Assembly (NCBI RefSeq): GCF_900113605.1
Contig: NZ_FOPY01000014.1
Coordinates: 1-64,000 of the forward strand
Direction: 5' to 3'
Source: Modicisalibacter xianhensis
GTDB taxonomy: Bacteria > Pseudomonadota > Gammaproteobacteria > Pseudomonadales > Halomonadaceae
Length of the DNA stretch: 64,000 nucleotides
Below the pieces are notes generated by a model. That model worked only from the letters and a program-made list of their open reading frames with translations. It was not told the origin of the DNA and made no database searches. Shown here one piece after another: positions 33,482-62,691 of this stretch (position 1 is its first letter; each line of letters begins with the position of its first letter). The translations under genes and the position numbers were made by a program.

Positions 33482-34126
33482 TTATTCCTTGCTGGGGTAC
33501 TCGCCCCTGAATTCATCCATGCTCTTGAGGAGGTCAAGATAATCGATTCCGCCCGTAATCAGGCGGGTCTTGGTGGCACGCTCATACATCCACACGCTCC
33601 ACAATTTCATGTGGGTAGAGGCGCCTTCAATGTCCTTGGGCATCATGCCGCCCCATTCAGGATCATCAGCCATAAACTGGAGAGCCCGGTCAATGGCGCG
33701 ATCCAGGTCATTTCGCGGTGAGTAAAAGTCAGCCAGCCGTACCTGTTCCGCCAAAATCATCACGGCCAGCACTGGATAGTTCAGCCACTCAGCAAACCGC
33801 TCTATCACATCACGCCCCAAGCTGCTGGCTAACCTTCGCCCCGTCTTCAGGTGGCTGAGGGTGCTCGGTGCAATACCGAGGTGTTCCGCCAGGTCAGTGG
33901 AAGCTACCCCTTCGCTAACGGCTCGCTCGAAGATTACCTGCACGAGCTTGTAGCCAGGCGTCTCCGGTTCTATTTGCAGGTAGTCAGTCCTTGGCCCTTT
34001 GGCCTTGCCCTTCTGCCCGTCCTTGGGGCCAGAGCCAGGCTTGCGCTTTCCGGCTTCCACGACCGTTCGTAGGTCTTTGTCCTTGTTCCCCTGAGCCAAG
34101 TCTCTCTCCCATATGCCCCACGGCAT
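33482..34126 (-). CDS. Helix-turn-helix regulator
   Basis: This protein of up to 214 residues has a lysine-rich N terminus (about 20-45) and a Cro/CI-like helix-turn-helix at about 75-115 (STDLAEHLGIAPSTLSHLKTGRRL). The C-terminal region has no family that I know. A role as plasmid regulator is inferred. The ATG at 34126 is the listed start. An in-frame TTG nine codons later has a better ribosome site (GGGAGAGA) and may be the true start. It is transcribed away from the small gene at 34242. Confidence 0.7.
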   Translation of the reverse strand: MPWGIWERDLAQGNKDKDLRTVVEAGKRKPGSGPKDGQKGKAKGPRTDYLQIEPETPGYKLVQVIFERAVSEGVASTDLAEHLGIAPSTLSHLKTGRRLASSLGRDVIERFAEWLNYPVLAVMILAEQVRLADFYSPRNDLDRAIDRALQFMADDPEWGGMMPKDIEGASTHMKLWSVWMYERATKTRLITGGIDYLDLLKSMDEFRGEYPSKE

Positions 34127-34579: not shown

Positions 34580-35122
34580 CTAGGTCTCGATATGCTGTGC
34601 TTGGATGACCTCACACATCTGTTCAACCAGGGGCACAACTCGTCGCCACTTGGTTCGCAGAACGCGATGGTTACCTGTGGCCCAACTGCGCACAGAGGTT
34701 ACCGCCTCGTCAGCGGCTACAGCTATCTGGCGTGGGGTCATCACTTCCATCCAGCGATCCACTGTGGCTTTGACCTCTTTGGCATCGACCCAAGCACCGC
34801 CTTCAATGGCGACGTTCTCGGCCATGATTTCATCAATGGCTTCGAGCACTTTGTCATAGGACACCTTTCGAGGGACCGCTCCCCCTGTCCAGGTATGGAT
34901 AGAGGCCAAGGAAACCGAGCATCCAAGCTTCGCAGTCAGGTGCCCTGCGATCGTGGCCAGCGTCATGCCGTAATCGTCACGCAGCGTAGTTATACGTCGA
35001 GCCAGGTCACTGTCGGTCGTGCTTCGAGCAACACGTCCTCGGGTTGTCGGGATGCTGACCTTGATCTCGCAGCCATGCCTTTCAAGCGTGTTGATCAGGT
35101 CGTTCAGGAGTGCGTCACGCAT
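34580..35122 (-). CDS. Putative DNA-binding protein
   Basis: This 180-residue protein has two helix-turn-helix-like stretches: LRDDYGMTLATIAGHLTAKL with SLASIHTWTGG, and MTPRQIAVAADEAVTSVRSW with ATGNHRVLRTKWRRV. No enzyme motif is seen. It is convergent with the gene at 34242. Its start codon overlaps the start of the sigma-like gene on the other strand (shared CATG at 35120-35123), so the two genes must be regulated from within each other's coding sequence. A repressor role is inferred. Confidence 0.65.
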   Translation of the reverse strand: MRDALLNDLINTLERHGCEIKVSIPTTRGRVARSTTDSDLARRITTLRDDYGMTLATIAGHLTAKLGCSVSLASIHTWTGGAVPRKVSYDKVLEAIDEIMAENVAIEGGAWVDAKEVKATVDRWMEVMTPRQIAVAADEAVTSVRSWATGNHRVLRTKWRRVVPLVEQMCEVIQAQHIET

Positions 35123-35696
35123 GGCTAACCTCTTTGAATATCTGGCAAGTCAACCGCCCTCTGAAATGCAGCGACTTGTTGGTTGGACGGCTGCCCGACT
35201 GCATATCCCCAGACAATGGCAGGAGGATATGAAGCAGGAAATATACGTGGCCTGGTTCTCTAAGGAATATGACCCTTCGTATTCCCATGATGCGATCATG
35301 AAATATGCTGGTGAGGCGGCGTTCCTCGCGGTCAGCACATGGCGCCGCCATACCATCCTACCAGTGACCGTTCACAAGGCCGGCCAGGCCGATAGTGAAC
35401 CCAGGGCTGAACAGTTTGACCTGATGGCCGAACAGATCCCCGGATTCACTGAAGAGTTCAATGACGAAATCGACATTGACCCTGAAGCCTCTATCGAGGC
35501 CACCTCAACGGTGTCAGCGCACCTCATCGACCTACCCAAACGCTCAGCTCGATCTGAGCTGTCTCATGAAAACCTGCTAGCCCTACACTGCGAAGGCCTT
35601 TCAGCCGCTGAGATCGCAGCCGCAGCGAACATGACCGAGCGCAGCGTATACCGCAGATTGGAACGGCTTAAACATGGAAAACGTAGTACAGTATAG
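35121..35696 (+). CDS. Sigma-70-like (ECF-type) protein
   Basis: This 191-residue protein has the layout of a small sigma factor. A region-2-like block comes first (RLHIPRQWQEDMKQEIYVAW, then AAFLAVSTWRRHTILPV), then an acidic linker and a region-4 helix-turn-helix (LLALHCEGLSAAEIAAAANM, then TERSVYRRLERLKHG). AGGAG lies ten bases before the ATG. Its 3' end overlaps traW by 23 bases, so it is the first gene of the transfer block and may control it. Similarity to sigma factors is judged by eye. A regulator with only the C-terminal helix-turn-helix is the alternative. Confidence 0.6.
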   Translation: MANLFEYLASQPPSEMQRLVGWTAARLHIPRQWQEDMKQEIYVAWFSKEYDPSYSHDAIMKYAGEAAFLAVSTWRRHTILPVTVHKAGQADSEPRAEQFDLMAEQIPGFTEEFNDEIDIDPEASIEATSTVSAHLIDLPKRSARSELSHENLLALHCEGLSAAEIAAAANMTERSVYRRLERLKHGKRSTV

Positions 35697-52971: not shown

Positions 52972-53003
52972 AAAAGCCCCAATTCCGCAAAGGAAAAGGG
53001 GCT
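52972..53003 (-). terminator. Terminator after the ERF gene
   Basis: On the minus strand AGCCCC and GGGGCT with an inner TTCC/GGAA extension form a stem followed by TTTTC, eight bases after the ERF stop. Confidence 0.8.
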
Positions 53004-53011
53004 ATGGAACG

Positions 53012-53665
53012 TCAAGCATGTTGGTGTTGCTGTCGCTGGAGAATTCGGCGTCGCTGTGCGATCGCTCCCTTGAGCCGAGCTGACAGGTGAGCGTCCAGTT
53101 GAGTGTTATTGACCCAGCATTCAGCTGAAGCCAAGCGCCCAACATCTGAGTTTTCGATCTCTGCTAGAATCGCCTCGGGCGATGCCAGGCGAGGACCGTT
53201 CATGACACGCGGCTTTAATGGTTCCGGCGCTTCCTGGGGAAGAGGCGTTGAAGCACATACAGCTGCGTTGTTGGCAGCGTTTCCATCATCGTCCGGGCCG
53301 TGAGCCAGGCCGAGAAGCGCCATCAACCCGTACCGCCGTGCATAGGTCTGGGCTGACGCCACGCCATGGCTATCCAGGGTTTCAACAGGCATCTCACAGT
53401 AAGAGCCAATGTATTCCCCGGAAGGCCCATGAATGAGCATGGTCTCCATCACCACAGAGCCCACCATCCCGGGCACGGGCGCTTGAACTAAAGCGATCTC
53501 ATTCTTATTCAAGACTTCGCGAATACTGCCGATTAACACTGTGAGGCTCGCATAGCGGCTGTCGTACATCGGATTCGTGGAATCCGGGGCGATCCAACCA
53601 CCTAGCTCAGCCTGCACCGACGCTAAGGCTCTGCCAATGCTGGCAATCGAGTCACTACGAATCAT
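53012..53665 (-). CDS. erf: ERF-family single-strand annealing protein
   Basis: This 217-residue recombination protein would anneal complementary single strands, as phage P22 Erf does. Family blocks are YDSRYASLTVLIGSIREVLN, ALVQAPVPG, IGSYCEMPVE and the signature ASAQTYARRYGLMALLGLAH followed by PDDDGNAA. The C-terminal third is variable and ends in a Gln/His-rich tail. The ATG at 53665 lies exactly behind the shared leader (copy 1). A terminator follows the stop. Such genes are typical of plasmid leading regions, where incoming DNA is single-stranded. Confidence 0.9.
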   Translation of the reverse strand: MIRSDSIASIGRALASVQAELGGWIAPDSTNPMYDSRYASLTVLIGSIREVLNKNEIALVQAPVPGMVGSVVMETMLIHGPSGEYIGSYCEMPVETLDSHGVASAQTYARRYGLMALLGLAHGPDDDGNAANNAAVCASTPLPQEAPEPLKPRVMNGPRLASPEAILAEIENSDVGRLASAECWVNNTQLDAHLSARLKGAIAQRRRILQRQQHQHA

Positions 53666-53727
53666 AAGGTGTTCTCCTCTCATCCCCCTGGTGTTGGGGT
53701 CTCATGAGAGATAGGGGCGCCACTGAC
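53666..53727 (-). promoter_or_regulatory. Shared leader, copy 1 (ERF gene)
   Basis: Minus strand: GTCA, seven bases, CCCTATCTC, TGAGA, then a hairpin CCCC-AACACCA-GGGG, ATGAGAGGAG and the start codon 62 nt after the first G of GTCA. The stem sequence differs from copies 3, 4, 6 and 7 but still pairs. Confidence 0.8.
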
Positions 53728-53780
53728 AGACAAAGGGGAGGTGATAACGAGAGAATTTCGGGAGTGGCAATGCCGCTGAG

Positions 53781-54071
53781 GTGACTCGTGACAGCGGTAA
53801 ATCAAACAAACGTTTATTTTATGCAAAGCTTGGAGAACTGATGCAGCACGTAAGGGAACTAGATGAAATCCCTAGGCCCCATACAACCCTGGTCTCAGCG
53901 CTAATAACTGAAAAGAAAAGCCAGACTGGTTATGGAATGACAGATCACACGGCAACCGTAGATCCTGTGCTGGCAGCCTTGCGAACAGAAGCACCGCCAG
54001 GAGGCATGCTGTCTACGCTCAGAAGCGCCAATACTGCAGGTATGCGCTTCAAACGGGGAGGGGTGTCATGA
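53781..54071 (+). CDS. Small hypothetical protein on the opposite strand
   Basis: This 96-codon frame starts at a GTG. The product is basic (MTRDSGKSNKRLFYAKLGEL) with a Gly-rich end. It lies between the ERF and primase units but on the other strand, and shows no family signature. No clear ribosome site is present. It could be a real small gene or chance. Confidence 0.35.
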   Translation: MTRDSGKSNKRLFYAKLGELMQHVRELDEIPRPHTTLVSALITEKKSQTGYGMTDHTATVDPVLAALRTEAPPGGMLSTLRSANTAGMRFKRGGVS

Positions 54072-54163
54072 CCTAACCAATCTGAGAGATTATGCCCAAC
54101 CCAAATTCAGCAATATGAAACCATGCATCCCGGCATTCCAAATCCCACTATGCTGAAATTGAA

Positions 54164-54197
54164 AGAACCCTCCCAACATAGGATGTTAGGAAGGTTT
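54164..54197 (-). terminator. Terminator after the primase-like gene
   Basis: AACCTTCCTAACAT pairs with ATGTTGGGAGGGTT (minus strand, two wobbles) around a 3-nt loop, followed by CTTTC. It lies seven bases after the stop codon at 54204. Confidence 0.65.
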
Positions 54198-54203
54198 GAA
54201 GGG

Positions 54204-55295
54204 TTAAGCAGCTTCGCTCGTGCGGGGAAAACCCGTGAGTCCGCTACTGGTGTACACATCAGCCCAATCCACGCTCTCATCAGCTGAGCTGGGTGCATCA
54301 GGGATCTTGATTGACGCTTGAACCCCTTTCTCTAAGAGCCGAGCTTGGAGCACTTCAGCCGCGTCCTGGCCCGCCTTGCGACCCTTCCTGTCGGGGAGGT
54401 CACGATCAGCCCAGATGACGACTTCAGTGACACCCTCAGGTGGCTCGAACGACCTCATCAGCGAAGCTGACAGTACCGGCCAGACAGGCATCCCAGTTGC
54501 CGCCCGAATAGCTAGCGAAGTCTCGATGCCCTCAGCCACGCCAATAACGCCGCCTGTCGTAGTCCCCAAGCGGATGGCACCACCATGGACATCGCCTCCA
54601 TTCACCACAGGGAACAGCTTTTTAGCCTTGCTTACCGGGGCCTTCTCCACAACCCCGTTTGCGGCGCGGTTGAGGTACGTCCTATGCATCGTTACAGGCT
54701 TTCCAGCCGCATCCCTGACGATGGTTATCAACGCAGGGTAGTGGCCAAGCACTTTGCCTTTCTCGATATAGGCCAGCTTCGGGTGGAGGCGTGCCTCCGT
54801 CTCGAGAACGCTAAGCATCGGTTTTACAGGCAACCCGCGGAACTGCAGGTAGCTCGCCAGCATGAAGCGACCTTCCCCCCTTCCCAGGGGTAGAGCTTCT
54901 TCCCAGCGCTTGCGCAGCGTTGGCCGAATGTCCTGCTTTTCCTCGGCCTTCGGTGGCGCTGGGCGTGATACGGCGGGAGCCAGCGGCTCAACGGCTTGTT
55001 CACCGAGAGCCCCCATGACCTGCTCCAGGATTTCGGGAAGAGACCAGCCTTTCAAGTCCTTGAGTAGGCTGAATCCATCCCAATTTCCGCAAGTGCAGAT
55101 GGCCGTTCCACGTTGCTTGAAGCCGCGATCGAGGCGAAAGTCCTCCTTGCCACCATGTATGGGGCAATCGATGTGATGACCCGGGTGGGCTAGAGCAGCC
55201 TCCAGCTCCGGGCACAAGGCCTGAAAGACCATATCCCACCGACCTTCCGCAACACGCTTCACATCAGCGATTTCGTACTTGTTGCTGTTTCTCAT
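54204..55295 (-). CDS. Primase-like protein: zinc-binding plus Toprim domain
   Basis: This 363-residue protein resembles the P4/TraC-like primase-helicase N-terminal module. A zinc-binding domain (DCPIHGGKEDFRLDRGFKQR, then CTCGNWDGFSLLKDL) lies at about 40-85. A Toprim domain lies at about 230-340, with VAEGIETSLAIRAATGMPVW and VVIWADRDLPD carrying the acidic residues. No helicase part follows. It probably primes or processes incoming single strands. The ATG at 55295 is fixed by the shared leader (copy 2). A longer frame upstream overlaps that leader and is rejected. Confidence 0.85.
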   Translation of the reverse strand: MRNSNKYEIADVKRVAEGRWDMVFQALCPELEAALAHPGHHIDCPIHGGKEDFRLDRGFKQRGTAICTCGNWDGFSLLKDLKGWSLPEILEQVMGALGEQAVEPLAPAVSRPAPPKAEEKQDIRPTLRKRWEEALPLGRGEGRFMLASYLQFRGLPVKPMLSVLETEARLHPKLAYIEKGKVLGHYPALITIVRDAAGKPVTMHRTYLNRAANGVVEKAPVSKAKKLFPVVNGGDVHGGAIRLGTTTGGVIGVAEGIETSLAIRAATGMPVWPVLSASLMRSFEPPEGVTEVVIWADRDLPDRKGRKAGQDAAEVLQARLLEKGVQASIKIPDAPSSADESVDWADVYTSSGLTGFPRTSEAA

Positions 55296-55357
55296 GATCT
55301 GCTCCTCTCTCATTCCCGGTTGCCCGGATCTCACAAGTAGATAGGGCGACCAGTGAC
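55296..55357 (-). promoter_or_regulatory. Shared leader, copy 2 (primase-like gene)
   Basis: GTCA, seven bases, CCCTATCTA, GTGAGAT, then CCGG-GCAA-CCGG (a short stem with a GNRA-type loop), GAATGAGAGAGGAG and ATG at 62 nt. The stem changed sequence from CCTGC/GCAGG but keeps pairing. Confidence 0.8.
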
Positions 55358-55399
55358 GGCTATGGAGAGGTAGGGGAGACACTGCCACCAACCAGAAAT

Positions 55400-55415
55400 G
55401 TTCCGCATGCGAAAC
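55400..55415. promoter_or_regulatory. Palindromic operator candidate GTTCCGCATGCGAAAC
   Basis: This 16-bp near-perfect palindrome (one mismatch) lies about 105 bp upstream of the primase-like gene. A perfect version is found upstream of the SRAP gene at 59602. The sequence suggests a dimeric repressor site. Confidence 0.55.
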
Positions 55416-55441
55416 ACTGCCGGCCGGTTTCTCTGGACCGA

Positions 55442-55472
55442 GAAAAGCCCCTTCCTGTAGGGAAAGGGGCTT
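55442..55472 (-). terminator. Terminator after the cytosine methyltransferase gene
   Basis: AAGCCCCTTTCC pairs with GGAAGGGGCTT around a short loop, followed by TTC on the minus strand, about 30 bases after the stop. Confidence 0.85.
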
Positions 55473-55500
55473 GAAGGGTGCCTGGGGTTCCAGTGAATGA

Positions 55501-56901
55501 TTAAGCCGCGGAAAGCGTCTTAGCCGCCCCTTGGTGCCAGGCTGATTTGTACTGCTCACGAACGTTATGCAAGCAGTTGCCAATGAGACGGCCCACTGCG
55601 CGGAAAGCGCAATGCACCACACCTTGGCCCAGTAGTTCGTGGCTGACTGTCTCAGACAGGCCTTGAACTAGCTCTTCAGGTACGGTTTTGACTCGGGCAT
55701 GTTCTGCCTTCGTCAACAGCCGCGACTGGCCAGCATCGTCAGGATGGCGGATGAACGGCTCTGTGGAACGCGCTTTTGCATAGCCACGTCCAATGGTGCC
55801 GAGGCTATCCTCAGTCCCATCGAGTAGCTGCCGGCGAAAGCCCTTTCCCGCCGCCAGATCCCTGGCTTCTTTTTCGGCAAGGTAGTCGTAGGGCTTGAAG
55901 CGATCCTGCACTACCTCAAACGGCTCCAACACCTCAGCGATTGACGCTTCACGTTGACGTACCGGCTCCAGCGCCTCGAGGTCGACCTCGATGCCCTTGC
56001 TCACCGCGAGCATGCAAAGCCGATCACGCCGCTCCAACGATCCCATGGCATACCCATCCAGGATGGTCTCCTGAACGTCATAGCCAATGCTTGCCAACAC
56101 ACTGCGAATGACCGTCATACTGGCGGTCGTCTGGTACGGGGGTACGTTCTCCAGCAACACCATGGCCGGCCGCAAAGTCTGGATGGCATTCAGGAAAGCA
56201 ACGAAGAGACTTCCTGCCGTCTCATGCGCTTCTGCCCGATCCAGCCCATTTTTCGCCCGTCCTGACAGACTAGCCCCCGTACAGGGCAAACCAGCACAAA
56301 GGAGGTGAATGAACGGCAGCTTGTGCCACTCCACTTCCTCCATCGGGCCTTGGATCGCAATGCTATCCTCGTCCCACACTGGGTTGTTCGCCAGGGATGC
56401 CTCCAGGTACGCACTTTCAAGCTCATTGGCGAAGGCCAGGCGTGCGGGGATACCGACATCAGCTAGCCCAGAATGGATCGCGTGATCCAGCACACCGCCA
56501 CCGTGGGCGATAGAGCCAATTTCAAGCGGCTCACCCTTGGTCAGGGCCTGCAGTAGCCGACCCATACGATCCGATTCCGCTAGATCATGGTGATGAATCG
56601 TGATGTCGACACGGTTGCCCCTGACGACGACACGCACCCGCTCCACCTTTCCCAACGCTTGCGCCAGCTCAGCTGCCGTAATGTCGATGACAGGTAGCTC
56701 TACCTCCCCACGCTTCCTGCGAGACACCTTGTAAGCACCATCCTCTGCAAATTGCAGGGTCAAGCTTTTACGGCCGGCAACAAGGTTGAAGCGTTGCCCT
56801 GGGGCAATTCCAGTCCGCGCCAGCCGATTGCCTTCCAGCCACAGCCGCTGCTTGCCCCGGTGCTCGCCGATCTTGGTGTAAATCACAGTGCTCTTGCTCA
56901 T
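55501..56901 (-). CDS. DNA cytosine-5 methyltransferase with N-terminal DNA-binding-like domain
   Basis: This 466-residue enzyme would methylate cytosine in DNA. From about residue 120 the C5 motifs appear: motif I is weak (EIGSIAHGGGVLDHAIHSG), motif IV has Cys207 in LLCAGLPCTGASLSGRAKNG, motif VI is MVLLENVPPYQTTAS and motif VIII is GSLERRDRLCMLAV. The first ~70 residues (YTKIGEHRGKQRLWLEGNRL) look like a small AbrB/SpoVT-type strand domain. No restriction enzyme is adjacent, so protection of plasmid DNA against host restriction is likely. The ATG at 56901 follows the shared leader (copy 3). Confidence 0.88.
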   Translation of the reverse strand: MSKSTVIYTKIGEHRGKQRLWLEGNRLARTGIAPGQRFNLVAGRKSLTLQFAEDGAYKVSRRKRGEVELPVIDITAAELAQALGKVERVRVVVRGNRVDITIHHHDLAESDRMGRLLQALTKGEPLEIGSIAHGGGVLDHAIHSGLADVGIPARLAFANELESAYLEASLANNPVWDEDSIAIQGPMEEVEWHKLPFIHLLCAGLPCTGASLSGRAKNGLDRAEAHETAGSLFVAFLNAIQTLRPAMVLLENVPPYQTTASMTVIRSVLASIGYDVQETILDGYAMGSLERRDRLCMLAVSKGIEVDLEALEPVRQREASIAEVLEPFEVVQDRFKPYDYLAEKEARDLAAGKGFRRQLLDGTEDSLGTIGRGYAKARSTEPFIRHPDDAGQSRLLTKAEHARVKTVPEELVQGLSETVSHELLGQGVVHCAFRAVGRLIGNCLHNVREQYKSAWHQGAAKTLSAA

Positions 56902-56964
56902 GATCCGATCCTCTCTCATTCCTGCGAAATGCAGGTCTCGAGGGGAGGTAGGGGGCCAGGTGAC
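56902..56964 (-). promoter_or_regulatory. Shared leader, copy 3 (cytosine methyltransferase gene)
   Basis: GTCA, seven bases, CCCTACCTC, CGAGA, hairpin CCTGC-ATTTC-GCAGG, AATGAGAGAGG and ATG at 63 nt. CCTC before the hairpin can pair with GAGG of the ribosome site. The 200 bp further upstream hold no gene. Confidence 0.85.
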
Positions 56965-57156
56965 CCAAAACGGGGCGGTGGGGATGTTGCACAGGTTGCG
57001 CCAGGAAGGTCATCGGCGCCGACCAGCAGGGGGAACGTTGCATAGTTGAGCCCGAAGCTACATGGTTCGATGGCTGAGCTTGTGAGGGGGATGTTGCACA
57101 GCTGCGATCGGCGGATGTCGGCTAATGACAGGCTGGGCATGGGCAGCCAGAACGAG

Positions 57157-57182
57157 AAAGACCCCTCGAGGTGAGGGGTCTG
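57157..57182 (-). terminator. Terminator after the 57.2-kb hypothetical gene
   Basis: AGACCCCTC and GAGGGGTCT (read from the minus strand) form a stem followed by TTTC, ten bases after the stop at 57192. Confidence 0.8.
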
Positions 57183-57191
57183 TTGAATGAA

Positions 57192-57563
57192 CTACGCAGC
57201 GGTCTTGATCATATGCACCAGCCCAATGCCGCGGTTGAGGGCTTCTCGAGCAAGCTCGAGGGCATAGGCATCAAGATGAGTGTTGTCCTCGGTCTTGTTG
57301 ACCTCAACACCCCCCTTTACGGCTGCCACATCATCCAAAAGGACTGATTGGCTGCCTACCTTCAGTTCGACCTTGGCCTTGAGTACACCGAAGAACCACT
57401 TATTCTCTGCCCAAGTTTCCTTATCGGATACTGAGTAGGTATCAAAGCAGTGCGGTGTCACGTCAGGATCATGGTCAAGCATCACGGTGATCGTGAAGTC
57501 GCCATGTGTACCTGTAACGGTGTCACTACAGATAGCAAAGCAGTCGAATTTCGTCATTTCCAT
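57192..57563 (-). CDS. Hypothetical protein
   Basis: This 123-residue soluble protein has no recognised domain: MEMTKFDCFAICSDTVTG, then HCFDTYSVSDKETWAENKWF and LDAYALELAREALNRGIGL. Composition is acidic with a mixed beta then alpha pattern. The ATG at 57563 is placed by the shared leader (copy 4). A longer frame upstream runs through that leader and its terminator and is rejected. It forms a single-gene unit with its own leader and terminator, like its neighbours. Confidence 0.75.
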   Translation of the reverse strand: MEMTKFDCFAICSDTVTGTHGDFTITVMLDHDPDVTPHCFDTYSVSDKETWAENKWFFGVLKAKVELKVGSQSVLLDDVAAVKGGVEVNKTEDNTHLDAYALELAREALNRGIGLVHMIKTAA

Positions 57564-57627
57564 GATCTTTCTCTCTCTCATTCCTGCGGTATTGCAGGTC
57601 TCAAAGGGAGATAGGGGAGGCACTGTC
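57564..57627 (-). promoter_or_regulatory. Shared leader, copy 4
   Basis: GACA (for GTCA), seven bases, CCCTATCTC, TTTGAGA, hairpin CCTGC-AATACC-GCAGG, AATGAGAGAGAGAAAGATC and ATG at 64 nt. CTGTCA and TGACAG around five bases also form an inverted repeat here. Confidence 0.85.
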
Positions 57628-57657
57628 ACAAACTGACAGGCCCAGGGCCTCGCGCAT

Positions 57658-57685
57658 GAAAAAGCCCCTCGAGGAGAGGGGCCTT
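57658..57685 (-). terminator. Terminator after the phosphatase-like gene
   Basis: GGCCCCTC and GAGGGGCT form a stem with a short loop and are followed by TTTTTC on the minus strand, about 48 bases after the stop at 57733. Confidence 0.85.
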
Positions 57686-57732
57686 GAATCAATACTGCTA
57701 AGCGGAAGGCGATTGTGCGACCAAATAGCGAG

Positions 57733-58146
57733 TCACGCAGCTGTCCGGTCAAGCAGGGAGCGAACATGCGGGTTGGCATCCCTGCCATCACCTTCGACTC
57801 CCTGAGCGGGGCGATTGAGCGAGGCGCCAGCCCAGAGAGCCACCGCAGCTGACCGGCTGACACCGGCATTGCAGTGAATAACCAGCTTCACCTGTCTGCG
57901 ATCGCTGGCCCACTGGCGAATCCAGCCAGAAATCGTCCGCGCATCTTCAAGCGTCATGGGCTCTTCACACCCGAAACCCTCACCTGGGACGACATCATCA
58001 AACTGTATGGAAAGAACATCAGTCCATCCCTTAGCCAGGCGGGGTGAACGCTCATCGATTCCCCGAATGGACAGGACTACAGTATCGGCGTTTGCCGGCC
58101 GCCGCTCGATGTCACGTCGACTTGTGTATTCGATGCTAGTGATCAT
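57733..58146 (-). CDS. Tyrosine/dual-specificity phosphatase-like protein
   Basis: This 137-residue protein carries the phosphatase loop HCNAGVSRSAAVALW with the nucleophile Cys92 and the phosphate-binding Arg98. An Asp-rich stretch upstream (VLSIQFDDVVPGEGFGCEE) could supply the general acid. It is smaller than typical family members. The substrate could be a protein, a nucleotide or an RNA end. It lies three bases after the 109-residue gene, so both share leader copy 5. A phosphatase in a block of DNA-protection genes is unusual. Confidence 0.8.
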   Translation of the reverse strand: MITSIEYTSRRDIERRPANADTVVLSIRGIDERSPRLAKGWTDVLSIQFDDVVPGEGFGCEEPMTLEDARTISGWIRQWASDRRQVKLVIHCNAGVSRSAAVALWAGASLNRPAQGVEGDGRDANPHVRSLLDRTAA

Positions 58147-58149
58147 GGG

Positions 58150-58479
58150 TTAATCATCCTGGCTAGTTAGGGCATGGAGTGCTTGCTGGCGCACACGTCC
58201 TGCGACGTGAATCCTCATCGCGTATTCGGAAGCCGCGAAGCGCGATCGCTTTCGTGACGACTGACGATTCATGTGCTGCTGGGTATCAATCACCAAAGCC
58301 TGGGCGGCCGCGACATAACGCAAGAGGGTTTCGCGCTCGGGATACATGGGATGCGAGCTATCCCATGACAGACGAACGCACGCCTCGCCAATCACGGAGG
58401 AGCGAGAAAAGGGGTTGTCCAGGTAGTGTGTCACTAGCGCGTCGCCGGTCTGGGCGATATGCCCTTCACGTTGCTGCAT
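58150..58479 (-). CDS. Hypothetical protein, first gene of the phosphatase unit
   Basis: This 109-residue soluble, mostly helical protein (RETLLRYVAAAQALVIDTQQ, then FAASEYAMRIHVAGRVRQQA) has no family that I recognise. It starts behind the most degenerate full-length leader (copy 5) and ends three bases before the phosphatase-like gene, so the two are probably co-translated. Confidence 0.7.
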   Translation of the reverse strand: MQQREGHIAQTGDALVTHYLDNPFSRSSVIGEACVRLSWDSSHPMYPERETLLRYVAAAQALVIDTQQHMNRQSSRKRSRFAASEYAMRIHVAGRVRQQALHALTSQDD

Positions 58480-58545
58480 GGTGATTCCCCTATTGTCCCC
58501 TGGCTCATGAATGGCTGGTTGTAGGGAGATAGGGCCGGCGCTGAC
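58480..58545 (-). promoter_or_regulatory. Shared leader, copy 5 (two-gene phosphatase unit)
   Basis: GTCA, seven bases and CCCTATCTC are intact and the start codon follows at 66 nt. The region between lacks the standard CCTGC hairpin and the GAGAGAGG box (it has AATAGGGGAAT). This suggests that the GTCA-N7-CCCTAYCTC block works on its own as the core signal. Confidence 0.7.
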
Positions 58546-58555
58546 ACAGAAAGAG

Positions 58556-58586
58556 AAAGCCCCAACTAGCGAACTAGAAGGGGCTT
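58556..58586 (-). terminator. Terminator of the small-ORF unit
   Basis: AAGCCCC and GGGGCTT with inner CTAG pairing form a stem followed by TTTC on the minus strand, 23 bases after the small frame's stop at 58609. Confidence 0.8.
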
Positions 58587-58608
58587 GAAGGTAAAGCGTT
58601 GAATCTGA

Positions 58609-58752
58609 TCAGCACAGAGCTGCAGATTTGCCGTGCATGACAGCTTCCCCTGGAGCGAAAAGCCACAGGGATGCCTCGAGGAGGTTATCAGGATTGCTGA
58701 CGTAAGCGCCCTTGCGTGATAGCCGAATAGCCAGCGGGCCTTGTCGAAACAA
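58609..58752 (-). CDS. Candidate small protein of 47 residues
   Basis: Between a leader copy and a terminator there is no large frame, but one short frame reads as a plausible protein: FRQGPLAIRLSRKGAYVSNP, then DNLLEASLWLFAPGEAV, ending MHGKSAALC. It opens at a TTG at 58752, with no in-frame ATG or GTG near. The position inside the same leader-gene-terminator layout supports it. The start and even the coding nature are uncertain. Confidence 0.4.
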   Translation of the reverse strand: MFRQGPLAIRLSRKGAYVSNPDNLLEASLWLFAPGEAVMHGKSAALC

Positions 58753-58849
58753 CCTGACAACCTACCTAAGAGGTTATCGTGATTACAATTTTTCGTTTCC
58801 CATACCGCTCAATGAACGGCCTCGCCAATAAGATAGGGGGATGGGTGAC
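58753..58849 (-). promoter_or_regulatory. Shared leader, copy 8 (small-ORF unit)
   Basis: GTCA, seven bases and CCCTATCTT are followed at the usual distance by a different 6-bp hairpin (CCGTTC-ATT-GAGCGG), then TATGGGAAACG. The candidate start codon is about 30 nt further away than in the other copies. Confidence 0.6.
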
Positions 58850-58897
58850 ACCTGGGAAGGCTTTAGGGAGAAAATTCGTTGCTACGATAGATTTTTT

Positions 58898-59563
58898 TTA
58901 TTCCTCAACACCTTCTACCGAAGCCAGAAGGCCCTGGCCCTCTGCAGCCGCGTCGTTGACCGCCGAGCTGACCGGATAGGAGACCAGCTGCCACGGAGGC
59001 AAGGGCTTGAGGTGCTTCTTCAGCGTGTCGCGGTCTCGCACTTCAGGATCGAGCCAAGCATCAGCGCCAGCCGCGACGACCACCGGCATACGGCTATGAA
59101 TCCGCTTAGCTTGTCCCTGTGCCGGCTGGGTCACGATCGCACAGCCCAACTCGCCATCTGCTTGCTTAGTGAAAACCCCAGCCAGCAATATCAGTCGATT
59201 CGAGGCACCGCAGAAGTAGAAGGGTCGCTTGCGATCACCCTCGTGCTGCCACTCAAACCATCCGTTCACGGGCACTAGGCAACGGTGGCGGGTGAACGCG
59301 CCTTTCCAGAACCTGCTCGACGCCAGGCTTTCAGCTTTGGCCACATGAGTACGGGGCGCGTCCTTTGGCGCCCACCTAGGTTGAAATGTCCACTTCAGCG
59401 TGGTCACCTCCGGCTCACCATCGGTAGCAGCGATCGCCACGATGGGATCACCTGGAGCAACGTTGTAACTGGTAGGGGGGAATGTTGCACCGGAAGCGAT
59501 AGGGTAGCTGAAACTATCGGCCACCTGCCTGACATCATCAAAAAGGGCAAAGCGTCCGCACAT
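58898..59563 (-). CDS. SRAP-family protein (YedK/HMCES-like)
   Basis: This 221-residue protein would cross-link to abasic sites in single-stranded DNA and shield them. The catalytic Cys2 is present (MCGRFALF). It is followed by the Asn in PTSYNVAPGDPIVAI, the Glu in LVPVNGWFEWQHEGDRKRPF and the His in AKRIHSRMPVVV. All core residues of the family are seen. Length is typical. It has no GTCA/CCCTA leader. Instead a perfect palindrome lies 39-54 bp upstream of the ATG. SRAP genes are frequent on plasmids and phages that pass through single strands. Confidence 0.92.
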   Translation of the reverse strand: MCGRFALFDDVRQVADSFSYPIASGATFPPTSYNVAPGDPIVAIAATDGEPEVTTLKWTFQPRWAPKDAPRTHVAKAESLASSRFWKGAFTRHRCLVPVNGWFEWQHEGDRKRPFYFCGASNRLILLAGVFTKQADGELGCAIVTQPAQGQAKRIHSRMPVVVAAGADAWLDPEVRDRDTLKKHLKPLPPWQLVSYPVSSAVNDAAAEGQGLLASVEGVEE

Positions 59564-59601
59564 GATGGCTTCACTTCTGTTTTGAATTTTGATTATTCAC
59601 C

Positions 59602-59617
59602 GTTTCGCATGCGAAAC
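59602..59617. promoter_or_regulatory. Perfect palindrome GTTTCGCATGCGAAAC upstream of the SRAP gene
   Basis: This 16-bp perfect palindrome lies 39 bp before the ATG in an AT-rich setting, between the terminator of the next unit and the SRAP gene. A one-mismatch copy is at 55400. It is likely an operator. It does not match the LexA box. Confidence 0.6.
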
Positions 59618-59631
59618 AACGTCCATCCAAG

Positions 59632-59655
59632 AAAAGCCCCTGACAAGCAGGGGCT
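59632..59655 (-). terminator. Terminator after the 59.7-kb hypothetical gene
   Basis: AGCCCCTG and CAGGGGCT form a perfect stem followed by TTTTC on the minus strand, 35 bases after the stop. Confidence 0.85.
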
Positions 59656-59689
59656 GAGATTCTTGTCTCCATAGGTGAGCCAGCCCTAA

Positions 59690-60112
59690 TCAAGCTGCCA
59701 GCATGACACCAGGAAACTCCGCGGCACAAATACGCTGAAAGGCCGGGTCTGTTAGGTCAAGGAATACCGAATCCCCATGCTTTTGGATCTCGCGAATGTC
59801 GTACATTCCCCACTCCTCGACTTCTGCGTGCCATGGCTCAGGTCCATGCCCCGTCCAGTGAACGAAGTATGATCTACCATCAATCCTGATCTCGATGCGA
59901 TCGCTGATCAGAAAGATTGGCCAACCACGCGAGCGTGCCACTGGGCTCAGCGCCAACCGTCCAGAGAAGGTGTCTAGGTACGCCACCTGCCAACGCAGGT
60001 CATCACCACCAATGAACATCTCCCGAGGATCGACCACCCAAACCTCCACCCTCTGAATGCGGTTTCGAGATGCGTAGGGTTGGCGACTCTCAGTAGCGTA
60101 GTTGCTGCACAT
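59690..60112 (-). CDS. Hypothetical protein
   Basis: This 140-residue protein has no recognised domain. It is rich in aromatic and charged residues: IQRVEVWVVDPREMFIGGDD, then EIRIDGRSYFVHWTGHGPEP and WGMYDIREIQKHGDSVFLDL. The pattern suggests a mostly beta fold. The ATG at 60112 follows leader copy 6. The longer upstream frame crosses the leader and is rejected. Single-gene unit with its own terminator. Confidence 0.7.
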   Translation of the reverse strand: MCSNYATESRQPYASRNRIQRVEVWVVDPREMFIGGDDLRWQVAYLDTFSGRLALSPVARSRGWPIFLISDRIEIRIDGRSYFVHWTGHGPEPWHAEVEEWGMYDIREIQKHGDSVFLDLTDPAFQRICAAEFPGVMLAA

Positions 60113-60178
60113 CAGGGTTTTCCTCTCTCTCATACCTGCCGGATGCAGGCCTCGAGGAGAGGTAGGGGTTGGCATGAC
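60113..60178 (-). promoter_or_regulatory. Shared leader, copy 6
   Basis: GTCA, seven bases, CCCTACCTC, CGAGG, hairpin CCTGC-ATCCG-GCAGG, TATGAGAGAGAGG and ATG at 66 nt. CCTCTC upstream can pair with GAGAGG at the ribosome site. Confidence 0.85.
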
Positions 60179-60214
60179 AGGCAGGGGGCGGCTTTTCACA
60201 CTGAGACCAGCAAG

Positions 60215-60247
60215 AGAAAAGCCCCCAGGAGGTGATCCATGGGGGCT
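60215..60247 (-). terminator. Terminator after the SHPPY methyltransferase gene
   Basis: AGCCCCCATGG and CCAGGAGG with GGGGGCT form an imperfect stem followed by TTTTCT on the minus strand, eight bases after the stop. Confidence 0.75.
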
Positions 60248-60254
60248 GAAGTGC

Positions 60255-61148
60255 TTATGCGACTCGCCAGATTCCACGCTCGACTGGGGCAAACCAGTCA
60301 TTGACGTATAGCGTCTGACGAACCTTCTCGCGCCAGTGTTGGCGTCCTGCCAACCGATCCGGCGCATGCTCTGCTACCGCTTCATAGAGCCGCGATAGCG
60401 ATGCCTCCCCGCCCAGCGACACCAAGGCCTGTCGCACAATAGCTTTCCATGTGCCTCGGATTCGGCGCTGCTGGGCATGAGCCATGCAGGAGAGGGTCGA
60501 CAACAGCGCTACGCTCCTGTCAGGCCGCTGCCAGAGCAGGATGTACTCGTGCGACACCCTGGGCAGACGCATGCCAGCATACTGACGTGATGCGCTCTGA
60601 ACGTTGTGCTGTGCCTTGATCAGCACCGCTCGCAGCTCACTCCCTGGCATCCGTGCGATCGCATCAGCTTGAAATGACCAATATTGGCCGTTACGCCTCA
60701 GGTCACCGATGATCGTTCCGTAGTAGCCGCCGTGATGGACAGCCTCTCGCTGATTGAGTAACGCCTGCTGGAGCTTGTCCATGAACTCGTCAGGATCAGC
60801 GCAGCGGGATAGGTCATCCGGGTGCTCGCCAGGGTACACATTGCCGCTGTACACGATCATGTCGTGATAGGGCGGGTGCGAAAGGCAGAGGTCCACCGGC
60901 TTGCCCGTAGCATCCAGAATGGAGTGCCGCAGGATGTTGAAGCCTGAGTGCAGATCCAGGCCAAAGGCCTCGATCCCCATCTCCTGAGCCACCTCTACCG
61001 AGGTTCCGCTTCCAACCATCGGATCACAGAACGTTCGAGGTTGAAGCTGCTGGAAGATGTCCTGGTAGACAAATCCCGAGCAGTTGCCCCGCCAGCTGGA
61101 TTGGCCCCACTTTCCCCGGTTGGGGTGAGAAATAACGGATGTGCTCAT
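60255..61148 (-). CDS. DNA amino-methyltransferase (N4/N6 type, SHPPY motif)
   Basis: This 297-residue enzyme would methylate exocyclic amino groups in DNA. The AdoMet motif is DPMVGSGTSVEVA (residues 42-49 core) and the catalytic motif is SHPPY (90-94), a variant of (S/D)PPY. FGLDLHSGF supplies the acidic AdoMet contact. The order, AdoMet motif before the catalytic motif, fits gamma or beta-like groups. The C-terminal ~75 residues (IVRQALVSLGGEASLSRLYE) look like a winged helix. No restriction partner is nearby. The ATG at 61148 follows leader copy 7. Confidence 0.87.
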   Translation of the reverse strand: MSTSVISHPNRGKWGQSSWRGNCSGFVYQDIFQQLQPRTFCDPMVGSGTSVEVAQEMGIEAFGLDLHSGFNILRHSILDATGKPVDLCLSHPPYHDMIVYSGNVYPGEHPDDLSRCADPDEFMDKLQQALLNQREAVHHGGYYGTIIGDLRRNGQYWSFQADAIARMPGSELRAVLIKAQHNVQSASRQYAGMRLPRVSHEYILLWQRPDRSVALLSTLSCMAHAQQRRIRGTWKAIVRQALVSLGGEASLSRLYEAVAEHAPDRLAGRQHWREKVRQTLYVNDWFAPVERGIWRVA

Positions 61149-61213
61149 GATCTTGCTCCTCTCTCATTCCTGCAAAAGCGCAGGTCTCAAGAGGGGATAG
61201 GGGGACAGCTGAC
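61149..61213 (-). promoter_or_regulatory. Shared leader, copy 7 (amino-methyltransferase gene)
   Basis: GTCA, seven bases, CCCTATCCC, TTGAGA, hairpin CCTGC-GCTTTT-GCAGG, AATGAGAGAGGAG and ATG at 65 nt. CCTCT and AGAGG can form an outer stem that covers the ribosome site. It begins two bases after the stop of the DUF192 gene, with no terminator between. Confidence 0.85.
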
Positions 61214-61215
61214 CG

Positions 61216-61731
61216 TCACAGGTCGACCTCGAGGCGATCCCCCACGGCCACACCACGCTCATCGAAGTAGCCGGCGTTTACCTCCAGGGCCATCCAGAAG
61301 CGGGCGCCAGCGGGATACCGTGGACAGGCAACCTTGTATGCAGTGCAGGGCGCCATGCTGGTGATCGACTGGATCTCCCCAGCGCGATCGAGGAAGGCAA
61401 TATCGAGCGGTATGCGAGTGCGGTACATCCAGAACGCATGGTCGGCTGACTGTTCTTCATCGTAAATAAAGAGCATGCCGGCATCGGGCGCCAGAGAATC
61501 ACGCTCCATCAGGCCCATCCGGCGCTGGCGCGGGGTCGCAGCCATCTCCAGGGTCAGCGTGTGCAGACCGTCCTTGGCATGCAGAACGCCGGGAGCAACA
61601 GCAGTTACCTGACGTTGGATCATGCTTACGACCAGGGCGGTGCCAATCAAGAATGCCGCGATGATGCCGATAGCTTGCCGGGTGATGGGCCGATTGTGTC
61701 TAGCAAGCCATTGTTGAAGCTGAGACACCAT
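61216..61731 (-). CDS. DUF192-family exported protein
   Basis: This 171-residue protein has an N-terminal membrane anchor or signal (AIGIIAAFLIGTALVVSMI) and a DUF192 domain: LEMAATPRQRRMGLMERDSL, GMLFIYDEEQSADHAFWMYR, and IPLDIAFLDRAGEIQSI, ending VNAGYFDERGVAVGD. DUF192 proteins are small beta-sandwich proteins of unclear function. It has no shared leader. It lies directly upstream of leader copy 7, so read-through into the methyltransferase gene is possible. Confidence 0.85.
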   Translation of the reverse strand: MVSQLQQWLARHNRPITRQAIGIIAAFLIGTALVVSMIQRQVTAVAPGVLHAKDGLHTLTLEMAATPRQRRMGLMERDSLAPDAGMLFIYDEEQSADHAFWMYRTRIPLDIAFLDRAGEIQSITSMAPCTAYKVACPRYPAGARFWMALEVNAGYFDERGVAVGDRLEVDL

Positions 61732-62028
61732 TACCTGGGCTCCAAATTAAAATCAGAATGTCACTCCGAGATAGAGCCGAGGGTGACCATACCGGGACAG
61801 GGGTAGGGGGAACATATCATGCCGGCGACCACGTTACTGGGCCGCTGGCTGCGCCATGCTCGCTGGGGCAATCCAGCAGCCGTGCAGCATGCAGTCGAAT
61901 TTTCACACCTAGCGGCCCGGGTGAATCCACCAGCCGCCAGCGCCAGCGAACTCGGTATCATTCAGTGACACCGATGGCCGCTTAGCACCGGGGGCGACAT
62001 AGCCTACTGGCAGCCAGGGCCTAGAGGT
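61732..62028. other. Intergenic region with a possible worn leader copy
   Basis: No gene is evident. On the minus strand CCCTACCCC at about 61800-61808 lies 70-77 nt before the DUF192 start, without GTCA at the right distance. It may be a decayed leader copy or chance. The rest shows no clear promoter or hairpin. Confidence 0.3.
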
Positions 62029-62691
62029 TTGCAATGCCAGCGTCTCCCGTATTCTCCAGCCGCGGGGCTCACAACGACCACCTACGATGACAACTTCAGT
62101 TGCTCGATCAGGGACATCATTTCCTTGGCATCGGGGAAAGGCGATCTTGTCGACTACGCCACTCTCGACTCCTATGCCTTCGGCGAATGCCGCGGATTGG
62201 TTCATAGCGATCGCGCCAGCATCGAACCCTTACTCAGCTGGCATGAACTCCGCTTCCATGGCGGCGCTGGAGAGTCACTGGAAGGCTTCAGCTGGCAACC
62301 CGGGGGTTATCACTTACACAACCAGGGCGGCGCCCATCACTTCGCCGCGGCCCGCCTGATTGCAGGCTTCTTCGATCCTGAGCTACACATAAAGGCTCCC
62401 CTGACCAGGCATGCACTGAATCCCGAGGTCGCCCTGAGCATCCTCGCCGCTTTCGACATCTTCTGTGAGCCAGAGGATCACACGATGAACGAGGCCTTCA
62501 TGAAGCGCATGGCGGCAGCGCAGATACCATTCGCCACCTGTGCAGCACCCCCACCGTGGCAGGATGGCCATCGCCTCCTACTGTTCCCCCGACAACACAA
62601 CAAAGCCACGGCAGCAGCAGACATATTCCGGGCCTACGGCTGGCTCGATGTCGGCGCATTTCTTGGCAGGCACGCGATGTTACAGCAGTAG
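62029..62691 (+). CDS. Hypothetical protein
   Basis: This frame of up to 220 residues shows a coherent protein (GEDLVDYATL-like start, then HELRFHGGAGESLEGFSWQP, YHLHNQGGAHHFAAARLIAG, FLGRHAMLQQ). The HLHNQGGAHHFAAAR block, rich in His, could be a binding site. No family is assigned with confidence. The start is uncertain: the frame opens at a TTG and there is no early in-frame ATG. A decayed duplicate of its last ~45 codons lies at 63117-63250. It is one of few plus-strand genes in this part. Confidence 0.6.
   Translation: MQCQRLPYSPAAGLTTTTYDDNFSCSIRDIISLASGKGDLVDYATLDSYAFGECRGLVHSDRASIEPLLSWHELRFHGGAGESLEGFSWQPGGYHLHNQGGAHHFAAARLIAGFFDPELHIKAPLTRHALNPEVALSILAAFDIFCEPEDHTMNEAFMKRMAAAQIPFATCAAPPPWQDGHRLLLFPRQHNKATAAADIFRAYGWLDVGAFLGRHAMLQQ

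Follow-up and report, generated by a model that had tools for sequence, protein, structure and literature searches.

One family of large Halomonas plasmids carries a short, putative start-of-transcription cassette that is repeated before about 20 of its own genes. We analyzed 64,000 nucleotides of Modicisalibacter xianhensis (contig NZ_FOPY01000014.1, positions 1 to 64,000; hereafter, the window), the initial 64 kb of contig C22, which is 141.7 kb long; a second contig, C45, is 42.6 kb long. The cassette, or module, has the consensus GTCA-N7-CCCTAYCT-N5-7-GAG(A/G)-stem-loop-stem-(A/T/G)ATGAGAGAGGAG-ATG, in which we call GTCA-N7-CCCTAYCT the box. The modules constitute a real, plasmid-specific promoter-leader regulon. 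On balance we think it probable that each is a dedicated promoter joined to a 5'-hairpin leader, and that the regulon is read by a plasmid-encoded sigma-70-like factor (35121-35696). The copies, their sharp 5' boundary, stem covariation, sense-strand RNA chemistry, gene linkage, and a distant variant module were all computed here.

Module copies in the window

Between 53012 and 61731, eight minus-strand units are headed by the module, and a ninth box (55386) stands in tandem before the primase copy (Table 1). All eight copies listed in the first-pass annotation, which was made from the sequence alone, are present (GTCA beginning at 61213, 60178, 58849, 58545, 57627, 56964, 55357, and 53727), as are its one-off variants, GACA at 57627 and CCCTATCCC at 61213. 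In seven copies the ATG lies 62 to 66 nt after the G of GTCA, as had been described (65, 66, 66, 64, 63, 62, and 62 nt). Two further claims stood in part. A hairpin had been placed after each box, but the box at 58545 has no canonical hairpin, and 198 of 200 shuffles fold more strongly than its RNA. The statement that most units have their own terminator was partly borne out; a scan of both strands returned 9 terminator-like sites versus 6.8 expected.

Allowing up to two mismatches, the box matches 21 times in the window versus 6.5 expected, and none of 100 shuffles had as many; the exact boxes among these matches, six in all, lie inside the reported region, 53666-61213. The pattern CCCTAYCT-N4-10-GAG occurs 7 times in the window, 6 of them in the reported region, versus 0.31 expected. 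Copies beyond the original eight are the tandem box at 55386 (GGCA), a variant at 61787 before a DUF192 gene, and others elsewhere on the plasmid.

Distribution and gene content of the regulon

In the 4.36-Mb genome the exact box occurs 15 times, 12 on C22 and 3 on C45, with none on the other 43 contigs, and the reversed box pattern is absent from the whole genome. One of the C45 boxes (24264) is leaderless, lies in sequence aligning with the tra operon, and is probably a chance match. Since C22 and C45 are both collinear with pHAL1, they most likely belong to one conjugative plasmid with F-type tra genes. A megablast search of 72,556 records identified five related plasmids (Halomonas pHAL1, pTHAF12_a, KO116, and PA16-9, and that of Vreelandella sulfidaeris), and exact boxes with leaders are present on all five, as seen for KO116 and V. 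sulfidaeris in the examined stretches. The first-pass annotation had asked whether other plasmids carry further copies upstream of similar genes; they do, and the idea of a regulon survived. The dispersed plasmid regulon that it described is supported; the location in a leading region is less certain, boxes also standing ahead of the tra operon and rdgC.

By position in annotated relatives, the regulon includes ERF, primase, cytosine methyltransferase, SSB, ArdC, RadC, the tra operon, and rdgC. The tra operon carries a box on C45 (26687, minus strand) and on pHAL1 (88523, plus strand); the rdgC box of pHAL1, like those at the corresponding positions in two relatives, has the GGCA form with 1 mismatch and no hairpin. 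In annotated relatives traF, traH, and traG lie downstream of the ERF gene on the same strand. The genes downstream of different boxes are unrelated to each other.

Among 40 exact boxes on C22, C45, pHAL1, and pTHAF12_a, 36 are followed by a ribosome site and an open reading frame of at least 50 amino acids (aa) starting 50 to 89 nt on, a test passed by 525 of 3000 random positions. About 33 of the 36 are convincing: two (pHAL1 193049 and pTHAF12_a 76657) lie inside annotated genes and are probably due to chance, and the third, the copy-8 box at 58849, passes only via a 64-codon TTG frame that we do not believe to be a gene. Conversely, a search for hairpin leaders made without using the box, in five sequence sets, returned 45 leaders, and all 45 have a box 22 to 28 nt upstream, with 0 to 1 mismatches in 44 and 2 in one; reversed sequence gave no leaders. 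This pattern was strict (14 leaders on C22, 0 on C45), which is why looser copies such as 53727 were missed.

Genome contigs yielded 42 stretches with the box pattern, 30 of them from Halomonas or Vreelandella. The 12 stretches from other organisms have one match each and no hairpin leader by eye and were taken as chance; the single stretch found in viral contigs likewise has no hairpin leader by eye. Loci with related genes in Delftia and on a second KO116 plasmid have no box at up to 1 mismatch. Among the best-ranked matches in the open-access literature, a scope that takes in few subscription journals, we found no paper on this Halomonas plasmid promoter system.

The box as promoter and the stem as RNA

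We compiled 68 nonredundant copies by thinning, at 70% identity, 107 modules that have a box with up to 1 mismatch and the flanks GAG(A/G)..ATG..GAG; flank conservation in this set is partly selected, while the stem was not required for selection. Upstream of GTCA, information content peaks at 0.59 bit (position -2) and is mostly below 0.2; at the G of GTCA it reaches 2 bits. C22 has a back-to-back pair of boxes whose GTCA starts are separated by 9 bp (116993, minus strand, and 117002, plus strand; 8 to 16 bp in relatives), which leaves no room for separate upstream promoters. A sigma-70-like promoter (TTGACA-N16-18-TATAAT) was found once in 53000-62500 versus 4.0 expected; this sole site is inside the DUF192 gene, and none is at a module. 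Taken together, the sharp boundary at GTCA, the back-to-back boxes, and the scarcity of sigma-70 promoters make the box itself most likely the promoter.

The stem sequence varies while its pairing is kept, as the first-pass annotation had observed. Across 22 arm combinations, 313 of 335 cells are paired (0.934), versus a shuffle mean of 0.823 and maximum of 0.861. The non-Watson-Crick cells comprise 11 G-U, 14 others, and 2 A-C, both A-C cells coming from one misregistered copy; the counts retain two misregistered tra-operon copies and one other. Because G-U is kept and A-C is not, it is the sense RNA, rather than the template strand, that appears to fold. Judged by these substitutions, the stem behaves as sense-strand RNA, and transcription must then begin at or before it. 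Coupling also extends to the nucleotides on either side of the stem (50 A..A, 9 G..T, 5 A..G, 2 A..T, 1 G..G, and 1 G..C), and three loops are GNRA by a strict test. When six window leaders were folded against shuffles, z ranged from 0.05 to -3.71, so that not every copy folds better; these single-copy folds count against a role for the hairpin in stability only.

Copy 8 heads a conserved noncoding RNA

For copy 8 (58849), a start about 30 nt further on had been suggested. Relatives share no such gene start; the box instead marks the 5' end of a noncoding RNA (ncRNA). From 58849, about 270 nt are conserved to a terminator of their own, and no reading frame common to relatives was seen. The stretch is present in 5/5 named plasmids and, among 390 genomes sampled from the order, in two, its own genome included. 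An alignment of nine sequences, one of which ends before the terminator, contains 79 pairs, 7 with changes on both sides, and the window fold beats 200/200 shuffles (z of -4.56). With its box at the head, the same promoter seems to drive this structured ncRNA, and hence the cassette would not be a translation device only.

The radC RNA motif occurs upstream of DNA-related genes. In the excerpts available of its description it is listed, as Rfam RF01754, for Proteobacteria (PMC2864571); the window gave no match to it at gathering score, and 53000-62000 gave none at an E value of up to 10. Rfam scans of the window, of 53000-62000 at the same limit, and of the ncRNA gave weak, unrelated matches, none of them assigning the ncRNA to a family. 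No tRNA or tmRNA was found in the window.

A candidate reader of the box

The gene at 35121-35696 encodes a divergent protein that, scanned without its first Met, matches TIGR02937 (sigma70-ECF) over residues 16 to 183 (E value of 1.6e-4, 21.3 bits; cutoff, 42.9). Three close relatives match with E values of 2.3e-6 to 2e-3, and a relative in a distant genome, G137, with 6.9e-8 (32.3 bits). Its region 4 matches Sigma70_r4_2 (E value of 5.9e-4, below gathering score) and aligns by hhalign with six host sigma factors (77%, E value of 2e-5), although other helix-turn-helix (HTH) families score alike. Against 500 shuffles scored with an ECF profile, the G137 protein beats all, while the score is exceeded by 1 shuffle for C22, 1 for HAL1, 2 for PA16-9, and at least 5 for THAF12; the profile was built from 10 of 20 fetched sequences picked by a DD/ED..QE motif, which favors that motif. 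A PDB sequence search, also without the first Met, found nothing for the protein, and a PDB search with the alignment found weak matches only, mostly to HTH proteins.

The protein occurs in 12 of 275 genomes of the family, namely, the 11 with the box-leader pattern and G137, and, among plasmids, in the same five only. Such linkage would be expected for any plasmid gene and is therefore not proof. A search of 369 class genomes with one alignment (A1) matched the own genome only; with another (A2), 29 of 371 order genomes had a match, two of them to full-length family members and the rest partial, mostly HTH only. Viral contigs hold no relative. In one genome the sigma-like gene is present twice: the second copy (G266:C2:258280-258845), matched as two overlapping pieces (L122, L123), shares a contig with the first. 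In the window, a divergent gene with weak HTH matches (34580-35122, minus strand) overlaps the start of the sigma-like gene and could be a partner or regulator.

A distant genome with a matched variant

G137 offers a comparison at greater distance. A contig of 39% G+C encodes a 27%-identical sigma-like protein, with topoisomerase and TraU genes nearby, as in the window plasmid. G137 lacks any box-leader pattern of the GTCA-N7-CCCTAYCT kind; its genome has GTCA-N6-CCTTACCT five times, each followed, exactly or nearly, by a TGAAAAC-AGCC hairpin and AATGA..AGG, with the ATG 67 to 69 nt after GTCA. Four of these five leaders fold into the expected hairpin, and the five include copies before the genome's own ArdC (ArdcN domain) and primase (Zn_Ribbon_Prim, DUF7146) genes. 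A looser pattern gave 11 further matches without a leader by eye, and 5 in the control. The variant box is absent from 293 order genomes, a sample that does not include G137, and from viral contigs. The two upstream neighbors of the G137 sigma-like gene (204 and 177 aa) have no Pfam match at an E value of up to 0.01. Thus, where the sigma-like protein has diverged, the box has too, and the layout is conserved. It is possible, and we suggest it tentatively, that a sigma-like factor and a promoter class are coevolving on conjugative plasmids and that the factor reads GTCA and CCCTAYCT 7 (or 6) nt apart.

Proposed mechanism

From these data we infer a start site, a sigma function, a timing, and a role for the hairpin. 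GTCA-N7-CCCTAYCT would be the promoter core on double-stranded DNA, with a predicted transcription start about 6 to 7 nt past CCCTAYCT, near the conserved (T/C)GAG; this would put GTCA near -25 and CCCTAYCT near -14 to -7. The RNA would then begin with GAGA or GAGG, continue into a 5-bp hairpin, and reach AUGAGAGAGGAG, a strong ribosome site. RNA polymerase carrying the plasmid-encoded sigma-70-like factor would be the reader and would turn on one regulon, comprising the DNA-metabolism genes, the tra operon, and the ncRNA, during transfer and/or establishment. As for the 5' hairpin, its most likely role is to shield the end of the RNA and leave the ribosome site accessible, or else to be bound by a regulator.

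Several results weigh against this assignment. The elements GTCA and CCCTAYCT are 7 nt apart, closer by about one helical turn than the usual 16 to 18 nt, so they form no standard -35/-10 pair; this spacing, the main oddity, may reflect a holoenzyme of unusual type or the help of a further DNA-binding protein. The sigma-like protein reaches the curated cutoff in none of its profile matches, region 2 (Sigma70_r2, PF04542) was not found in it at an E value of up to 1, the N-terminal profile-profile match by hhalign is not significant (probability of 0.6%), and the region-2 shuffle test is clear for G137 only. A single-sequence AlphaFold2 model was poor (pLDDT of 43.7) and was not used. Neighboring genes, HTH proteins included, travel with the sigma-like gene in relatives, and linkage thus does not single it out. 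No box precedes the gene itself, the best match in 300 nt having 4 mismatches, and no variant box was found in the 140 nt examined at the G137 SSB gene.

Alternative explanations

Of the three mechanisms that the first-pass annotation had offered, the best fit is a promoter read by a dedicated sigma factor, since the same plasmid has a sigma-like gene. A different kind of promoter should be considered, one at which another plasmid HTH protein binds the box and recruits sigma-70 polymerase, as AcaCD of IncC and SetCD of SXT do. Those systems control related transfer genes, their regulators are described in the excerpts at hand as class II-like activators with divergent, closely spaced sites, and two weak-HTH proteins (33482-34126 and 34580-35122) adjoin the sigma-like gene. 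According to the excerpts available of two reports, SetCD promoters have no recognizable -35, and the SetCD motif lies at or just upstream of that position (PMC4207636, PMC4344509). With the same geometry here, the start would be within the hairpin or past it, some 30 nt from the box. However, no conserved -10 occurs at module positions 34 to 42, class II activation with sigma-70 would require a -10 in the variable loop, and the RNA would not contain the covarying stem. The incomplete gene tables of pHAL1 and pTHAF12_a list neither FlhC nor FlhD, and no FlhC/FlhD profile search was run. We regard this activator-dependent promoter as rather unlikely.

Still less probable is a purely RNA-level device, in which transcripts start upstream of GTCA from unconserved promoters and box, hairpin, and ribosome site form one RNA element that is bound by a protein or hides the ribosome site. 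The RNA-like stem, with its coupled flanks (A..A versus G..U), and the ability of the pyrimidine box to pair with the purine ribosome site would suit it. The sharp loss of conservation at GTCA, the copies 9 bp apart, the element heading an ncRNA, the hairpinless box before rdgC, and the lack of an Rfam family argue against it. The duplex between box and ribosome site has -10.10 kcal/mol with its own partner versus -9.76 with swapped partners, and 5 of 200 swaps are as low, a weak signal that is mostly composition. What endures of the RNA leader proposed in the first-pass annotation is the hairpin leader, as part of the same cassette; the data lend little support to the hiding of the ribosome site.

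Single-strand promoters active on the incoming T-strand, the remaining proposal, seem very improbable. In the model case, Frpo, single-stranded DNA folds into a -35/-10 mimic for host polymerase, as the excerpts available of PMC11541004 describe. The gene set (methyltransferases, with ArdC and SSB on relatives) does resemble leading-region genes, and most C22 copies are on one strand. Yet the folded duplex contains no -35/-10, no sigma-70-like hexamer pair occurs at a module, the stem keeps G-U rather than A-C pairs, and copies are found on both strands and before the tra operon; template-strand DNA folds are ordinary in 5 of 6 copies (z of -0.92 to 0.15), with one at -2.27. That ordinary constitutive host promoters were simply duplicated along with genes is scarcely credible: repetition, and nothing further, would speak for it, whereas the boxes head unrelated genes, none of the other 43 contigs has an exact box, and the modules have no sigma-70 consensus.

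Features of the region and a likely second operator

Table 1. Modules, boxes, genes, and the ncRNA in the window
Position	Strand	Feature	Details
61769..61787	-	Box variant	GTCA-N7-CTCTATCT, before DUF192 gene 61216-61731
61149..61213	-	Module copy	Box GTCA-N7-CCCTATCC (61195-61213); hairpin CCTGC/GCAGG; GAGAGAGG ribosome site
60255..61148	-	297-aa gene	Several plasmid relatives annotated DNA adenine modification methylase
60113..60178	-	Module copy	Box 60160-60178; hairpin of GAGG...TATGAG form
59690..60112	-	140-aa protein	No Pfam match
58831..58849	-	Copy-8 box	Presumed ncRNA promoter
58553..58823	-	Conserved ncRNA	5' hairpin CCGTTC/GAGCGG, long central stem, terminator; ends approximate
58480..58545	-	Box without canonical hairpin	Box 58527-58545; upstream of 109-aa gene
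57733..58479	-	Two genes	109 aa, unassigned; 137 aa, weak dual-specificity phosphatase match below Pfam cutoff
57564..57627	-	Module copy with GACA	Box 57609-57627; hairpin CCTGC/GCAGG
57192..57563	-	123-aa protein	No Pfam match
56902..56964	-	Module copy	Box 56946-56964; hairpin CCTGC/GCAGG
55501..56901	-	C5 cytosine DNA methyltransferase	
55368..55386	-	Extra tandem box (GGCA)	29 nt upstream of next box
55296..55357	-	Module copy	Box 55339-55357; hairpin CCGG-GCAA-CCGG (GNRA loop)
54204..55295	-	Toprim primase-like protein	DUF7146, Toprim_3, Zn_Ribbon_Prim
53666..53727	-	Module copy	Box 53709-53727; hairpin CCCC/GGGG
53012..53665	-	ERF-family protein	
35121..35696	+	Candidate reader	191 aa, divergent sigma-70-family-like protein heading traU cluster

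A palindrome, GTTTCGCATGCGAAAC, occurs with up to 1 mismatch at 11 genome sites, all on C22 or C45, including 59602-59617 and 55400-55415 in the window. Five sites (55400, 130543, 131951, 133960, and 135548) lie 8 to 36 nt upstream of a box, and this proximity makes a second plasmid operator likely. An SRAP (HMCES-like) gene adjoining the ncRNA (58898-59563, minus strand) has no box and is downstream of the palindrome at 59602. By eye, repeats of TGCAACRTYCCC are present upstream of the cytosine methyltransferase unit (56980-57110, minus strand). The box variant of the DUF192 unit sits in an inverted repeat, GTCACYCTC..GAGTGAC, and pHAL1 has the same.

Significance and comparison with known systems

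To our knowledge, the coordination of transfer and establishment genes in nonmodel conjugative plasmids has been little studied. If the proposed mechanism is correct, one switch runs tra genes, establishment genes, and a structured ncRNA, and a conserved hairpin leader opens most of the regulon's transcripts. Sequence analysis has provided a compact candidate promoter cassette, a named candidate regulator, and a regulon gene list, together with a distant, presumed plasmid whose matched variant could serve cross-specificity tests and a plasmid ncRNA without an Rfam family.

SigN (ZpdN) of the Bacillus subtilis plasmid pBS32 is, in the excerpts available, a LexA-repressed sigma factor tied to cell death after DNA damage (PMC6751061). 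The system described here resembles it in its candidate plasmid-encoded sigma factor, but SigN comes from another phylum, and no link to a transfer regulon was found in those excerpts. Like Frpo and ssi, insofar as the excerpts cover them, the modules are repeated, structured putative promoters before plasmid establishment genes; unlike them, the module has no promoter mimic, and its stem appears to act as sense RNA. Organization is similar, to judge from the same kind of partial sources, in AcaCD (IncA/C) and SetCD (SXT/R391), where a single regulator of a mobile element acts at many short sites, some in divergent pairs, that precede tra and DNA-processing genes. Those regulators are FlhDC-like class II activators, whereas here the box adjoins the presumed start and is followed by a covarying 5' hairpin.

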